From: Verrucomicrobiota bacterium
Lineage (GTDB): Bacteria > Verrucomicrobiota > Verrucomicrobiia > Opitutales > UBA2995
Direction of reading: 5' to 3'
DNA: 64,000 nucleotides
NCBI GenBank assembly: GCA_027622555.1
Contig: JAQBYJ010000019.1
Span: forward strand, 1-64,000
Shown here: positions 2,620 to 26,677 of the stretch, piece after piece
Numbering within the stretch: position 1 is the first letter of the stretch
Layout of the letters: each line of letters starts with the position of its first letter
Translations under genes and position numbers: made by a program
The notes under the pieces: model-generated
Database searches by the model: none
The model's input: only the letters and a program-made list of their open reading frames with translations
Told to the model about the DNA's origin: nothing

Positions 2620-2641
2620 CCCTGTGGCAGAGACCACAGGG
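2620..2641. terminator. Stem-loop after sulfatase gene
   Basis: A perfect 8-bp stem (CCCTGTGG / CCACAGGG) with loop CAGAGA begins 15 bases after the sulfatase stop codon. No T-run follows, so a classical intrinsic terminator is not proven. A close copy with the same loop lies at 2838-2859. Confidence 0.5.
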
Positions 2642-2730
2642 TATGAAAGACTAAAACAACGAATCAAATGCTAGCTTTTATCTTATTTTTCTCATTTCTT
2701 CCAAATGACGAAGCGCACACATTTGATGTT

Positions 2731-2808
2731 CGGATCGGGAGCAAGCTCCACTCCTACAGACTACCATCGCAACTCAACTGTAGGAAGGTAGCTTGCTGCC
2801 GATTTCGG
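2731..2808. repeat. REP-like inverted pair (GTAGGA / AGCTTGCT type)
   Basis: Two inverted copies of a REP-like unit face each other with their GTAG heads inward. Reading from the head, each unit is GTAGGAgtggAGCTTGCTCCCGAT or a variant with a GTAGGAAGGTAGCTTGC core. The GTAG head plus imperfect palindrome matches the general form of REP elements mobilised by RAYT proteins; similar AGCTTGCT cores are known from Pseudomonas REPs. It lies in non-coding DNA between the sulfatase gene and a convergent gene. Confidence 0.65.
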
Positions 2809-2837
2809 GATGCTCAAACTTTCCCATCAATCACCAA

Positions 2838-2859
2838 CCCCGTGGCAGAGACCACGGGG
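2838..2859. repeat. Second copy of the CAGAGA-loop stem-loop
   Basis: CCCCGTGG and CCACGGGG form a perfect 8-bp stem around the loop CAGAGA. It is the same structure as at 2620-2641, and the REP-like pair lies between the two. The stem differs by compensatory changes (T to C on one arm, A to G on the other), which supports the hairpin being the conserved feature. Confidence 0.6.
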
Positions 2860-2947
2860 AATCACAAGTTGAAGACTGAAAAGGAGTGAAGAAAAGTTGA
2901 TGTAATCTAGAGCAGTTAAACGATAAATAGTCACAATCTTTTGATTT

Positions 2948-3043
2948 AGGTAGGGCTCGATCGCCGACTGTGTCGGGTCGTAGCGATGCGAAGCCTGAGC
3001 GAGCCGTCTTGGAATCGGCGGTTTTGGCAAAACCGCCCTACCT
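2948..3043. repeat. GTAGGGC-type palindromic intergenic element
   Basis: This 96-bp element is bounded by AGGTAGGGC and its exact inverse GCCCTACCT. An internal stem GGCGGTTTTG / CAAAACCGCC forms near the right end. The GTAGGG head resembles the second palindrome family seen at 15379, 16963, 36060 and 60045. Confidence 0.55.
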
Positions 3044-3085
3044 TTTTAAGTGCGACATGTGTGAGTTAATTTGCCTTCCATCTAC

Positions 3086-3118
3086 AAAAAATGCCCAGTG
3101 TTTTCACTGGGCATTTTT
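3086..3118 (-). terminator. Intrinsic terminator, bidirectional
   Basis: The stem AAAATGCCCAGTG / CACTGGGCATTTT with a TTTT loop is flanked by A- and T-runs on both sides. It lies about 35 bases past the 3' end of the minus-strand gene at 3155-4042 and could also stop transcription arriving from the sulfatase side. Confidence 0.85.
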
Positions 3119-3154
3119 GAATCTTAAAATCTCTTTGATTTTGCGCCGATCTGG

Positions 3155-4042
3155 CTATTTTGGATCGGTATTTTCTATCTTTTGATCTTTTAGAACTTCG
3201 ATCTCACCCATTTTAACGCGGGATTCATCTGTCACTCTTTGTTTGGTCAAGCCCTCAATGTTCTTTCCAAAATAGTCAGATGCGATGTAGTTCAATTCTT
3301 GTATGGCCTCTCCAAAAGATTGGCCCAACGTTCTTATGCTATAGCGGGTACTCCATAAGAGTTCCGCCTCCGCATTTTTGAACTTTGTGTAATCATACGC
3401 CATCAAAACGATGAAGTATCTTTCTTCGGCGAGCATAGATTTGAGGTCGTGTTCCTCACCCTGTGTAATTTTATCACTATAAGCACGCTCCATACCGAGA
3501 AGTTGGGCTTTGTAAAATTCCCCTTGTCTATTCGATGTAGCACCCGTAGCGGATGATCCCAGATTAAAGCTTGCTGAGTTAATGGCGTCGATGGTGGCGA
3601 AGTCAATCGCAGCTCCACCAGCACCAGCGCTAAATACTTCATCTGTGAGTCCAAAATCTTCCTCCGTATTGTAGCCCATAAATTCTTCGTAGGATATTTC
3701 CACATCGGTAACTCCATAATGAACGACAATTAGCAAATCTCCTTTGCTTTTATCCTTATGCATGTAGAAGCCTTCTTTTTGGAGATTTATGGCGAGATCA
3801 TTTAAAATACTCTCAAATGGAATACCCTTCATCGAAGGATCGCTGGTTAAACCCACATGGACATTCCCCTTCATAAACTGATAGGTCTGAATCTTCTTGG
3901 TAGGATCCAGGGCCCTGGCCTTGACAAAGTCTTCTGAGGCTTGCGCTTTCAGTACGACTCTGTTGGCAGCTTGAAGGTCAGTTGTTAATATCAAGCATGC
4001 CAGTAAGGTGGCCGCGAGGGTTGGATATAAGGGAGATTTCAT
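3155..4042 (-). CDS. Secreted protein of unknown function
   Basis: This 295-residue protein starts MKSPLYPTLAATLLACLILT and has a likely cleavage site after LQA, so it is exported. The middle contains LLIVVHYGVTDVEISYEEF, followed by a glycine/alanine-rich stretch (SAGAGGAAIDFATIDAINSA). The C-terminal part has AELLWSTRYSIRTLGQSFGEAI, reminiscent of small secreted or lipoprotein-like domains such as DUF4136, but I cannot assign a family firmly. The last 25 residues are charged. It is monocistronic, bounded by a terminator downstream and a promoter-sized gap upstream. It lies next to the TonB receptor gene in the same direction, but a terminator separates the two. No function can be given. Confidence 0.8.
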   Translation of the reverse strand: MKSPLYPTLAATLLACLILTTDLQAANRVVLKAQASEDFVKARALDPTKKIQTYQFMKGNVHVGLTSDPSMKGIPFESILNDLAINLQKEGFYMHKDKSKGDLLIVVHYGVTDVEISYEEFMGYNTEEDFGLTDEVFSAGAGGAAIDFATIDAINSASFNLGSSATGATSNRQGEFYKAQLLGMERAYSDKITQGEEHDLKSMLAEERYFIVLMAYDYTKFKNAEAELLWSTRYSIRTLGQSFGEAIQELNYIASDYFGKNIEGLTKQRVTDESRVKMGEIEVLKDQKIENTDPK

Positions 4043-22563: not shown

Positions 22564-24099
22564 CTACCGTGTGCCCTTGCCTGATTGAATGGAAGCCAGG
22601 TGCTCGCGCATGGTTTGGGCAATGACTGGATTATCCCGGATGACATTGGTCGCCTGATAGGGGTCTGCTCGTAAGTTGTAGAGCTGCTCTTTGGGTGCGT
22701 CCGGTTTTATTTTTCCATTTTCGAGGTCGCTGTTCACTTCGCCTGCAAAGTGGATGGCAGCAGGGCCACCGAAAAGATGGGTTCCTGCGTGGGGACTAGT
22801 GAAGCCTCCACCAGCTTGTGCGCTGATATACATCCAGTCACCAGCTCGCAGAGACAGGTGGGTACTCTTTTGAGGTGCAAGCACCAGGTGATCACGAACC
22901 CGGACTGACGTATTTTCAGTTAATGCTGGCAGAATATTGAAGCTATCTGGGGCTTCGCCATCTTGCAGCTCCCGACCCGTGACGGCGGCGAGCGTAGCCA
23001 TCAAATCGACATTGGATACCAACTGATCTGATACGCTTCCGGCGGGAATTTTTCCGGGCCAGCGAGCAATGAAGGGCACGCGGTGTCCACCTTCCCAGGC
23101 GTCAAACTTAAAGCCGAGGAGATCTCCATTTTGTTTGTGCCCCAGCTTCCAGGCATCCTGGCCTCCCAGGTTGATCATGCCACCGTTGTCACTGGTGAAA
23201 ATGACCAGTGTATTGTCCGCCAATCCTTCTTCATCCAGAGTGCGAGTCACTTCCCCAACGATCCAGTCCAGCTCGTGGACGAAGTCGCCGTAACGACCAG
23301 CCTCACTGGTGCCGCGGAATTGGGGGTGTGGAGTAAATGGGTGATGGATGTTGGTGGTGGGGAAATAGAGAAAGAACGGTTCGTCTTTGTGCTCCTTGAT
23401 CCATTTAACAGCTCTTCCTGCAAGTTCAGTTCCGACCATGGTGTCGTCAAACACAGCATGCGCAGCTTCAGCGCCACCAATCTGGTCGATTCCCATTTTT
23501 TCCAGAAAGGGTTTGGTCTTGGCTACGGTGTCGTAAACGAATGGATCGTTTTCATCCAGGCCTACCACGCGATGGTTTTCCACATAGACAAACGGCGGAT
23601 GGCTACCGACTACGGGCATGCCGAAGTAGTAATCGAAACCCAGTTCGAGTGGTCCCGGTTTGAGATCGCCATTCCAATTGGGAGTCCCTTCTCCGAAGCC
23701 CAAGTGCCACTTCCCGATGCAGGCTGTAGCATAGCCGGCATCCTTCATCACATCGGCCACCGTCTTTTTGTTCTCATCAAAAATGAGTCCCACTTTCAGA
23801 AACACGGGCGACCAGTGATCTCCTCTGAACGCATACTCACCGGTGAGAAGGCAATAACGTGACGGGGTGCAAACCGCTGAAGCGGTGTGAGCATCGGTGA
23901 AGCGCCGACCTTGTAGAGCCAACTTATCAATATTTGGCGTTCGTATCTTTGTCGCGCCGTAAACGCTCGTATCGCCGTAGCCTAGATCGTCAGCAAAGAT
24001 GACGACGACGTTGGGCGGCGAAGCCGCAAGGGTCGAGGTCACCAAGGCGAGAGGCGAGGGGATAATGAGAAGTGAAATAAAGAGTCGGAGTATTTTCAT
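22564..24099 (-). CDS. Secreted sulfatase, tandem copy A
   Basis: The protein is about 511 residues from the ATG at 24099, with signal peptide MKILRLFISLLIIPSPLALV and cleavage near TLA-ASPP. An upstream in-frame extension runs through the palindromic repeat at 24120 and is not coding. Metal site FADDLGYGD; formylglycine motif CTPSR (Cys77) followed by YCLLTGEYAFRG; GKWHLGFGE; IFTSDNGGM; GHRVPFIARWPGKIP. It is closely similar over its whole length to the gene at 24384 (roughly 70 percent by eye), so the pair is a tandem duplication. This arylsulfatase A-like subgroup often acts on carbohydrate sulfates. A REP/BIME palindrome lies 20 bases upstream of the start. Confidence 0.92.
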   Translation of the reverse strand: MKILRLFISLLIIPSPLALVTSTLAASPPNVVVIFADDLGYGDTSVYGATKIRTPNIDKLALQGRRFTDAHTASAVCTPSRYCLLTGEYAFRGDHWSPVFLKVGLIFDENKKTVADVMKDAGYATACIGKWHLGFGEGTPNWNGDLKPGPLELGFDYYFGMPVVGSHPPFVYVENHRVVGLDENDPFVYDTVAKTKPFLEKMGIDQIGGAEAAHAVFDDTMVGTELAGRAVKWIKEHKDEPFFLYFPTTNIHHPFTPHPQFRGTSEAGRYGDFVHELDWIVGEVTRTLDEEGLADNTLVIFTSDNGGMINLGGQDAWKLGHKQNGDLLGFKFDAWEGGHRVPFIARWPGKIPAGSVSDQLVSNVDLMATLAAVTGRELQDGEAPDSFNILPALTENTSVRVRDHLVLAPQKSTHLSLRAGDWMYISAQAGGGFTSPHAGTHLFGGPAAIHFAGEVNSDLENGKIKPDAPKEQLYNLRADPYQATNVIRDNPVIAQTMREHLASIQSGKGTR

Positions 24100-24119
24100 A
24101 GGGTATATTATATAGAAAA

Positions 24120-24191
24120 CTGTAGGAGGGGGTTTATCCCCCGATTGCTTCGAGGTCGTACAATGATCGGGGGATAAACCCCCTCCTACAG
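24120..24191. repeat. REP/BIME palindrome (GTAGGAGGGGG family), copy 1
   Basis: Two inverted units, each CTGTAGGAGGGGGTTTATCC followed by CCCGATTG or its inverse, are joined by a short spacer. Each unit has the GTAG head and an internal imperfect hairpin (AGGGGG-TTTA-TCCCCC), exactly the layout of REP elements recognised by RAYT proteins. It lies just upstream of sulfatase copy A. Confidence 0.88.
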
Positions 24192-24307
24192 TTTCGTAAT
24201 AAGTTATGAATAAAGGATCCAAGAGCCAACTATTTTAATATAATCAATGTGTCTTTCTATTTTTCCCGAGTTATGAGTTTTTTCATGGGGTATTGGTGTA
24301 TTAAAAT

Positions 24308-24378
24308 TGTAGGAGGGGGTTTATCCCCCGATTGCTTGGAGGCCTTCGAAAGATCGGGGGATAAACCCCCTCCTACAG
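24308..24378. repeat. REP/BIME palindrome, copy 2
   Basis: Same two-unit structure as at 24120, with the spacer GCTTGGAGGCCTTCGAAAGA. It begins 209 bases upstream of sulfatase copy A and ends five bases after the stop codon of sulfatase copy B, so it lies in the gap between the duplicated genes. Confidence 0.88.
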
Positions 24379-24383
24379 CTAAG

Positions 24384-25931
24384 TCACCCTCGTTCCGGTG
24401 CAGTGCGCTTGGCTTTTACGCATTGGTCAAGGAGGGCTTTCATTTCACGAACGATTTCGGGGTATTGATTATATAAATTTATTGTCTGAGATAGATCTTT
24501 TTCCAAGTCGTAGAGTTGAGCAGGTGGAGCGTCGGCTTTGTATATGCCGTTTTCGATATCGCTGTTCACATGCTTTGTGAGCAAATGAGCGCCAGGGCCG
24601 CCACGTTCGTAGTCGGTTTCAAGTTTTCCACTGAATCCTCCACTTCCCTGAGCGCTGATATACATCCATTTGCCTTTTCGAATGGAAAGATTCGTTTTTC
24701 TTGAGGGACTCAGGACCAGATGATCGCGAATCTGCTCCTTGGGAGATCCAGTTAAAGCAGGTAAAACGTTAAAGCTATCCGGGCCTTCGGCTTTGGCTAA
24801 GGTTTGCTCAGTCAAGGCAGCCATGGTTGCCAGCAGATCCACATTACTGATCAGTTGATCGGAAACCGAGCCAGCAGGGATCTTCCCAGGCCAGCGTGCG
24901 ATGAATGGAACACGGTGTCCGCCTTCCCAGGCACCGAATTTGAAGCCGAGTAGATCTCCGTTCAGCCGATGTCCAGCCTTCCAGGCGTCCTGTCCTCCGA
25001 CGTTGAACATACCACCATTGTCGCTGGTGAAGATAACAAGTGTACTGTCGTCCAGCCCCTCTTCCTTAAGAGTATTCATGACCTCACCAACCATCCAATC
25101 GAGTTCATGGACATAGTCGCCGTAACGGCCACATTCACTGGTGCCTACAAATCTTGGAGCCGGCGTGAAGGGATGGTGGATGTTGGTGGTAGAAAGAATG
25201 AGGAAGAAAGGATCTTCCTTGTGTTCGCGGATCCATTGGACCGATTTCTCGGTGAGCTTGGTTCCGACTTCGCGATCCTTGTAAAGCGCGTGTGCGGCAT
25301 CGGCTCCACCAATGTCATCGAGTTTTCTCTTTTCGGGAAACATCTCCGTGTTCGCCAATTGACCGTAGACGAACGGATCTTCCGGAACCAGTCCGACTAC
25401 GCGGTGGTTTTCCACATAGACAAAGGGTGGGTGGCTGTTCACTACGGGTACGCCGAAATAGTAATCGAATCCCAATTCAAGGGGACCAGGTTTCAAATCT
25501 CCATTCCAGTTGGGTGTCTCTTCGCCGAAGCCCAAGTGCCACTTGCCGATGATGGATGTTGCGTAACCCGCACGTTTCATGACATCGGCCACGGTTGTCT
25601 GATCCGGATCAATAAGTAGCCCAACTTTCAGGAACACGGGTGACCAGTGGTCTCCGCGGAACGCGTACTCGCCTGTGATTAAGTTATAGCGCGAAGGCGT
25701 GCAAACGGCCGATGCGGAATGCCCATCGGTGAATCTGCGACCCTCGATTGCCAGGCGGTCGATGTTCGGCGTCTTGAGTTTGGTCGCACCGTAACAGCCC
25801 GTGTCGCCATAGCCAAGATCATCCGCAAAGATGACCACGACGTTTGGCGGCGAAGCCGCATGTGACGAGGCCATCAGGACGAGAGGCGAGGGGATAGTAA
25901 GAAGCGCAGTAAAAAGTAGGAGTATTTTCAT
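24384..25931 (-). CDS. Secreted sulfatase, tandem copy B
   Basis: This 515-residue protein starts at the ATG at 25931, with signal peptide MKILLLFTALLTIPSPLVLM and cleavage near SSHA-ASPP. It has the same architecture as copy A: FADDLGYGD, CTPSR (Cys77) followed by YNLITGEYAFRG, GKWHLGFGEETPNWNG, IFTSDNGGMFNVGG and GHRVPFIARWPGKIP. The C-terminus (QCVKAKRTAPERG) is slightly longer than in copy A. Differences cluster in the C-terminal subdomain, which often contributes to substrate choice, so the two may act on different sulfate positions (inference). REP/BIME palindromes sit on both sides of the gene, at 24308 and 25949. Confidence 0.92.
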   Translation of the reverse strand: MKILLLFTALLTIPSPLVLMASSHAASPPNVVVIFADDLGYGDTGCYGATKLKTPNIDRLAIEGRRFTDGHSASAVCTPSRYNLITGEYAFRGDHWSPVFLKVGLLIDPDQTTVADVMKRAGYATSIIGKWHLGFGEETPNWNGDLKPGPLELGFDYYFGVPVVNSHPPFVYVENHRVVGLVPEDPFVYGQLANTEMFPEKRKLDDIGGADAAHALYKDREVGTKLTEKSVQWIREHKEDPFFLILSTTNIHHPFTPAPRFVGTSECGRYGDYVHELDWMVGEVMNTLKEEGLDDSTLVIFTSDNGGMFNVGGQDAWKAGHRLNGDLLGFKFGAWEGGHRVPFIARWPGKIPAGSVSDQLISNVDLLATMAALTEQTLAKAEGPDSFNVLPALTGSPKEQIRDHLVLSPSRKTNLSIRKGKWMYISAQGSGGFSGKLETDYERGGPGAHLLTKHVNSDIENGIYKADAPPAQLYDLEKDLSQTINLYNQYPEIVREMKALLDQCVKAKRTAPERG

Positions 25932-25948
25932 GGGGTAATGGAGATTGT

Positions 25949-26021
25949 TGTAGGAGGGGGTTTATCCCCCGATTGCTTGGAGGTCGTTCGAAAATATCGC
26001 GAGATAATCCCGCTCCTACAG
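25949..26021. repeat. REP/BIME palindrome, copy 3 (one arm diverged)
   Basis: The left arm is intact (TGTAGGAGGGGGTTTATCCC). The right arm is diverged (ATCGCGAGATAATCCCGCTC) but still ends CTACAG. It lies between sulfatase copy B and the stop codon of the RAYT gene, 28 bases from the latter. Confidence 0.82.
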
Positions 26022-26048
26022 TTTGAAAATAAATTTTGAATGTAGCGG

Positions 26049-26588
26049 TTAGGCATTTATGTTTTTCTTTCCTGCTGATCCAATCCACTCTGGCATGGGC
26101 AGATTCTTTTCTCCAGCTATATTAATCCACGACTTGGCTTCCTCCCTGCAGTGGAAATAAGGCCATTCGCTGTCAGTGGTTATCAAGCCTTTTCGATAAG
26201 GATTCATCAGCATGTATCGCAACACAGAGCCGACGGAATCTTCAGGACGCAGTCGACGATCAAAGTAACCATTCTCCCATTTTAATTCGTTTTTTCTCAA
26301 TTCCGGGGTCATTCGTCCTTTGTATAGACGAACCAGATCTTGCAAGTTTGTTTCGGTGTTTAATTCAACTAGTAGGTGAACATGATCCGGCATATGAACG
26401 ATGCCATGGACGGCCCGACATTTGTCTTTTTCGAGCGTTTTCAAATGGGTCAGACTCGATTCGAATAGTTCCTTCGAATCCAAACCCGACTGACCAGTCC
26501 TCAGACAGATGGTTAAGAAATACATCGTGTCTTGGGCGGACCATCTGCCTTTGCGTAGAGCTGCATGACCTTTTGAAGGGTCTCTCAT
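26049..26588 (-). CDS. REP-associated tyrosine transposase (RAYT)
   Basis: This 179-residue protein is a single-domain Y1 transposase of the IS200/IS605-related TnpA_REP type. Visible motifs are YFLTICLRTGQ near residue 23, HGIVHMPDHVHLLVE with the HxH metal pair (His69, His71), YKGRMT near residue 89, WENGYFDRRLRPED near residue 104 and VLRYMLMNPYRKGL, where Tyr125 is the expected nucleophile. Known RAYTs cut single-stranded REP DNA at the GTAG head. Here the gene is bracketed by two such palindromes (25949 and 26606), with two more copies within 2 kb, giving a REPtron-like arrangement. The catalytic motif is intact, so the protein may be active. It has no passenger gene or IS ends of its own. 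Confidence 0.93.
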   Translation of the reverse strand: MRDPSKGHAALRKGRWSAQDTMYFLTICLRTGQSGLDSKELFESSLTHLKTLEKDKCRAVHGIVHMPDHVHLLVELNTETNLQDLVRLYKGRMTPELRKNELKWENGYFDRRLRPEDSVGSVLRYMLMNPYRKGLITTDSEWPYFHCREEAKSWINIAGEKNLPMPEWIGSAGKKNINA

Positions 26589-26605
26589 ATTCTATAAGGT
26601 TGACA

Positions 26606-26677
26606 CTGTAGGAGGGGGTTTATCCCCCGATTGTTTGTAATCGTTTGAAAATCGGGGGATAACCCCCCCTCCTACAG
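26606..26677. repeat. REP/BIME palindrome, copy 4
   Basis: Two-unit palindrome CTGTAGGAGGGGGTTTATCC to the inverse ending CCTCCTACAG, with spacer GTTTGTAATCGTTTGAAA. It begins 17 bases upstream of the RAYT start codon and ends 25 bases from the stop of the dehydrogenase gene. With copy 3 it brackets the transposase gene. Confidence 0.88.

Follow-up and report, generated by a model that had tools for sequence, protein, structure and literature searches.

Is a small transposase gene that lies among GTAG-headed palindromes in an Opitutales bacterium a transposon of its own, or does it belong with these palindromes? We asked this question of a window of 64,000 nucleotides (the whole stretch of DNA analysed). 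Our answer is that the locus is almost certainly a REPtron, in which a domesticated gene for a single-strand DNA transposase, a TnpA_REP (RAYT) of the type with short perfect palindromes, is accompanied by its cognate REPs; these surround the gene as REPINs and are dispersed through the genome. The features are collected in Table 1.

Table 1. Features of the RAYT locus, in window positions (a dot stands for a feature without assigned strand).
Feature	Position	Strand	Remarks
Tandem sulfatase genes	22564-25931		two paralogues, 69% identical; pair conserved in congeners G001 and G002
REPIN	24120..24191	.	upstream of the first sulfatase gene; perfect 29-bp arms (24117-24145 / 24166-24194)
REPIN	24307..24378	.	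between the two sulfatase genes, on the 3' side of the second; perfect 25-bp arms
REPIN	25948..26021	.	follows the RAYT stop at close range and precedes a sulfatase gene by 17 bp
RAYT / TnpA_REP gene	26049..26588	-	179 aa; matches to NF047646, PF01797 and 4er8
REPIN	26606..26677	.	precedes the RAYT start at close range; its plus-strand unit is GTAGGAGGGGGTTTATCCCCCGAT

The protein carries both hallmarks of its class, a HuH motif and a single catalytic Tyr followed by NP: HVH occupies residues 69-71 and Tyr125 lies within YMLMNP (motif YMLMNPxR), just as the preliminary description had it. NF047646 (REP_Tyr_transpos), the NCBI model of REP-associated tyrosine transposases, scores it at 83.6 bits against a cut-off of 80, a margin of 3.6 bits, and Pfam PF01797 (Y1_Tnp) at 33.4 bits against 23. 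The IS200 model NF033573 reaches 28.8 bits where 55 would be needed to pass, and the possibility that the protein is really an IS200 transposase, raised at the outset, fails on this score. Among PDB entries the best sequence match is 4er8, the E. coli TnpA_REP (E 0.0017). The same structure tops a fold search (E 1.1e-3, TMq 0.56), where IS200 transposases rank lower. The query here was an AlphaFold model from a two-sequence input (pLDDT 61, pTM 0.61), and because of its low confidence we take the fold match as supporting evidence only. PHROGs returned nothing beyond a generic transposase match and one family of unknown function. Judged by the curated model, the motifs and the GTAG-palindrome flanks, the predicted 179-aa protein is a member of the RAYT/TnpA_REP family.

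Four palindromic dimers lie near this gene, each made of two GTAG-headed units placed head-to-head, and they sit where the preliminary description had placed them. Two of them bracket the gene, at 27 bp (25948-26021) and 17 bp (26606-26677); the other two lie 1.6-1.9 kb away. Taken as single strands in order along the window, they fold with z-scores of -10.2, -10.4, -4.0 and -8.7, and no shuffled sequence folded as well. An Rfam search of these hairpins gave only sub-threshold matches to plant and animal miRNAs, as generic long hairpins do. The units were first thought to share one and the same hairpin. This holds for the GTAG head, which forms the outer edge in 8/8 units, but not for two minus-strand units that have diverged, one at 25995 (GCGGG-ATTAT-CTCGC; GCGGGATTATCTCGC) and one at 26651 (GGGGGGGTTATCCCCC). 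The hairpin itself had been drawn as AGGGGG-TTTA-TCCCCC. Its G/C run stands, but the limits of the stem do not: A6 has no partner, so that we rejected the AGGGGG/TCCCCC pairing and read the stem as GGGGG-TTTAT-CCCCC, in which T12 and A15 may pair.

The stem has been kept as a stem while its letters changed. Among 90 TTTA-type units the main forms are GGGGG, GCGGG, GGGGC and GCGGC, each of them opposite the partner that fits it. Over distinct units 95.2% of cells are paired, both sides having changed in 18 cells, and the covariation score of 0.462 compares with 0.155 in shuffles, none of which (0/500) reaches it; sliding the stem partner abolishes the covariation. In units chosen without selecting on the loop, T13 and A15 are found in 87/87 and T12 in 84/87, and position 14 varies. 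The dinucleotide before GTAG is CT in 57/87 units, where the T at -1 belonged to the fetch pattern and the C did not. Common descent of the repeats could account for the loop conservation as well as recognition by the enzyme. On the DNA side, these REPs fit the group 3 (subclass 2.5) type, a short perfect palindrome whose conserved loop is like those that the enzyme reads.

Are these repeats confined to the window? The genome (6.0 Mb, an assembly of 238 contigs) was covered by whole-genome pattern counts and by fetched loci. The core 19-mer has 19 copies against 0 in the reversed control, TGTAGGAGSSSS has 107 against 14, and the full IUPAC 23-mer GTAGGAGSGGSTTTAYSCCSCGA has 78 against 0, which disposes of the thought that only four copies might exist. 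In the fetched loci, 44/56 pairs of GTAG hairpins that lie close together are head-to-head, typically with a spacer of 19-22 nt; the predominant unit of the family is thus the REPIN, two inverted REPs and a short spacer. By a simple ORF caller, 67/80 units lie outside long ORFs though 86% of the DNA lies inside. Copy number, orientation and intergenic bias had been proposed as the check on a REPtron-like reading. All three bear it out, as do the NF047646 score over and the IS200 score under their cut-offs. The GGGGG-TTTAT subtype is concentrated at the RAYT gene, whose four dimers hold 6 of the 20 perfect units counted.

Beyond this genome, the exact REP pattern is present in 14/388 sampled Verrucomicrobiota genomes, all of the window's order. 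A scan of named genomes pointed the same way: among the matches listed, contig labels read Opitutales, Opitutaceae, Opitutia, Opitutus, Lacunisphaera or Verrucomicrobia, with a Rhodobacteraceae MAG contig (JAAUPC010000196.1, L170) as the lone outlier, which may be mis-binned. Taken together, the two surveys would put the host in or near Opitutales.

The RAYT and the REP occur together. The nearest relative of the RAYT is found in the congener G002, of the same genus, with 58% identity over its first 106 residues, beyond which stops break the frame. One REP of the same family flanks it on each side, head-to-head. An Opitutus MAG (L205) has a RAYT 38% identical, flanked by the same REP type. In a tree of 22 rows with long branches, these three RAYTs form one group with moderate support (88/89; the G002 row is a fragment), which the Pseudomonas and E. 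coli rows join nowhere with support. The RAYT lineage is thus linked with the same REP in three genomes. A close-homologue scan of a collection of genome contigs with the RAYT protein gave no match. Within its own genome the lineage has one full-length copy; NF047646, for its part, matches 24 places in the genome, weakly or strongly. The other intact GTAG-associated RAYTs, on C127 and C72, have different flanking palindromes (GGGACCTTGGTCCC; CTGCTTTAGCTGC).

How does this locus compare with known systems? The closest parallel is the REPtron Mb of Marinomonas sp. MWYL1, a group 3 TnpA_REP (PMC8266576). TnpA_Mb needs T12, T13 and A15 and tolerates any base at 14, according to an in vitro SELEX profile; it cuts at CT or CA via Tyr125, and its REP has a 5-bp stem two bases from GTAG (PMC8266576). 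The Opitutales system likewise has GTAG, two unpaired bases and a perfect 5-bp stem, a T12 T13 N14 A15 loop, a catalytic Tyr at residue 125 and REPs clustered near the gene. It differs in its loop of 5 nt (TTTAY) against 4 in Mb, and in its phylum. The likeness, read from sequence, lies in the REP layout and the position of the Tyr. The natural loop variation of the Opitutales REP matches the SELEX profile of TnpA_Mb. A large natural REP set thus allows natural variation to be read against a published in vitro selection, and the best-understood code by which short REPs are recognised, GTAG together with a TTNA loop, would extend to an Opitutales bacterium.

The stem is familiar too. We had thought its regular G/C run unusual; in fact, the GI REP core of P. 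fluorescens SBW25, GGGGGCTTGCCCCC, has the same run (PMC3116915) and equals the Opitutales stem except for the loop. The SBW25 GI REPINs (PMC3116915) and the GTAG-1 family (PMC3733652) share the unit GT[AG]GGAGGGGG...CCCCC as well as extragenic head-to-head doublets with a short spacer. Unlike the TTTA-type loop of the Opitutales REP, the Pseudomonas loop is of CTTG type, and the head of SBW25 GI is GTGG, not GTAG. Nor can Verrucomicrobia count as new ground. A 2013 report already records GTAG repeats in the PVC superphylum and in the verrucomicrobium Opitutus terrae, along with REPtrons in most species hosting such repeats (PMC3733652). The Opitutus terrae repeats are also GTAG-type REPs of high copy number, in the same order (PMC3733652). 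E. coli TnpA_REP (PDB 4er8), which ranks first in the PDB on sequence as well as on fold, shares the HuH/Tyr fold and the NP motif after the Tyr; its REPs are long with a bulge in the stem, and identity in the fold alignment is 17%. Because GTAG repeats were reported in 2013 and the stem equals the SBW25 GI core, the locus adds a member to a known system. It is an ordinary, well-built example of what is known from Pseudomonas, Marinomonas and Opitutus relatives.

The way in which the system would work can be drawn from the TnpA_Mb studies (PMC8266576). The RAYT would bind the single-stranded REP hairpin and read its TTNA loop, and the 5' GTAG would serve as a guide for a cut at CT beside the hairpin. 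Cutting through Tyr125 would leave a 5'-phosphotyrosine, and rejoining of the ends would copy or move two inverted REPs with their 20-nt spacer, that is, a REPIN. New sites would be mostly intergenic and the rate low. By analogy with characterised relatives, these steps and present-day activity of the RAYT are likely.

Could the gene be cut off from the repeats around it? One could suppose that the REPs are old remnants on which the local RAYT no longer acts, another RAYT of the genome doing so in its place. RAYT-like genes are indeed many, and the related G002 gene is broken by stops. Another RAYT could in principle serve the TTTA-type REPs, because the NF047646 cut-off is passed by 3.6 bits only and the model has 24 matches in the genome. 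We nevertheless hold this improbable: the other intact RAYTs associated with GTAG have palindromes of other kinds at their flanks, and the GGGGG-TTTAT subtype clusters at this very gene. A more radical separation would make the palindromes bidirectional terminators or mRNA stabilisers under selection, with the RAYT as a chance or decayed neighbour. The dimers do fold very stably, and among the 67 extragenic units, 40 have tandem genes on their two sides and 16 have convergent ones. Conservation, however, goes beyond the stem and takes in both the head (GTAG) and the loop (TTNA), the RAYT itself is intact, and RAYT and REP are linked in the same way in G002 as well as in the Opitutus MAG, which leaves this explanation with very little credit. 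A secondary regulatory role of the REPINs would not conflict with a REPtron.

The opposite error would be to tie gene and palindromes too closely, as a classical insertion sequence of IS200/IS605 type that would move in one piece and whose non-autonomous derivatives would be the dispersed dimers. The G002 gene does look like such a unit, between exactly one REP per side, head-to-head, and the left REP starts where the neighbouring gene ends and contributes the TAG that stops it. The RAYT loci also differ between the two genomes, each locus being without a RAYT in the other. An element of this class has its own left and right ends and multiple near-identical copies. Here, whole REPINs and not unique ends bound the gene, the lineage has a single full-length copy, its nearest relative is only 58% identical, and the IS200 score stays under the cut-off, so that we regard an insertion sequence as quite improbable.

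The position of the gene is the less ordinary point of what is otherwise known biology confirmed. In G002 the order of the two sulfatase genes and of the dehydrogenase gene after them is the same; no RAYT or REP is present, and the sulfatase-dehydrogenase gap is 4 nt. For the G002 RAYT the reverse holds: its flanking genes are found together in this genome, with no RAYT. We rejected the claim of a clean empty site: the N-terminus of the G002 sulfatase differs, and an unrelated small ORF occupies the other site here. Either loss or gain of the RAYT could have produced the difference at the two loci. It may be, and we would lean against it for now, that the lineage is not fixed at one locus and that REP-RAYT-REP is, at least on rare occasions, mobile as a whole. 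The Opitutales REPtron would then be a half-domesticated transposon, in contrast with the general view of RAYTs as single-copy and vertically inherited (PMC8049555); RAYTs at novel sites were noted earlier in pseudomonads (PMC3686654). Two genomes of one genus with the RAYT at different places provide a starting point on whether REPtrons move.

The REPINs near the sulfatase genes may have a longer history. A degenerate REPIN is found upstream of the orthologous G001 sulfatase gene and has the spacer motif CCTCCAAGCAATCG in common with the REPIN at 25948..26021; the sulfatase-upstream REPIN may therefore predate the split. Since each sulfatase gene has a REPIN just upstream, we also considered these REPINs as passengers of the sulfatase duplication. 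This origin is not required because G002 has the same tandem pair without a REPIN.

Other REPs and RAYT-like genes deserve mention in their own right. The REP that ends a gene in G002 (C619; L287, 4264-4290) does so in a ThuA/ankyrin-like gene, the TAG of its GTAG head being the stop codon. On C127 of this genome (G000), a second RAYT at about 2628-3240 (L119) has a different REP pair on both flanks, GTAGGAGGGACCTTGGTCCC and GTGGGAGGTAGCTTGCTGCC, tail-to-tail. Two longer proteins above the RAYT cut-off are encoded on C102 (L118, near 1000-1400) and C6 (L120, near 2900-3600); the palindromes at their flanks (CTGGGAACGCCGAGCCCCAGCTCGGC; GGATCGCGAATCTCCCGATTCGC) lack the GTAG head, and relatives of the type on C102 are found at other loci of the genome too.
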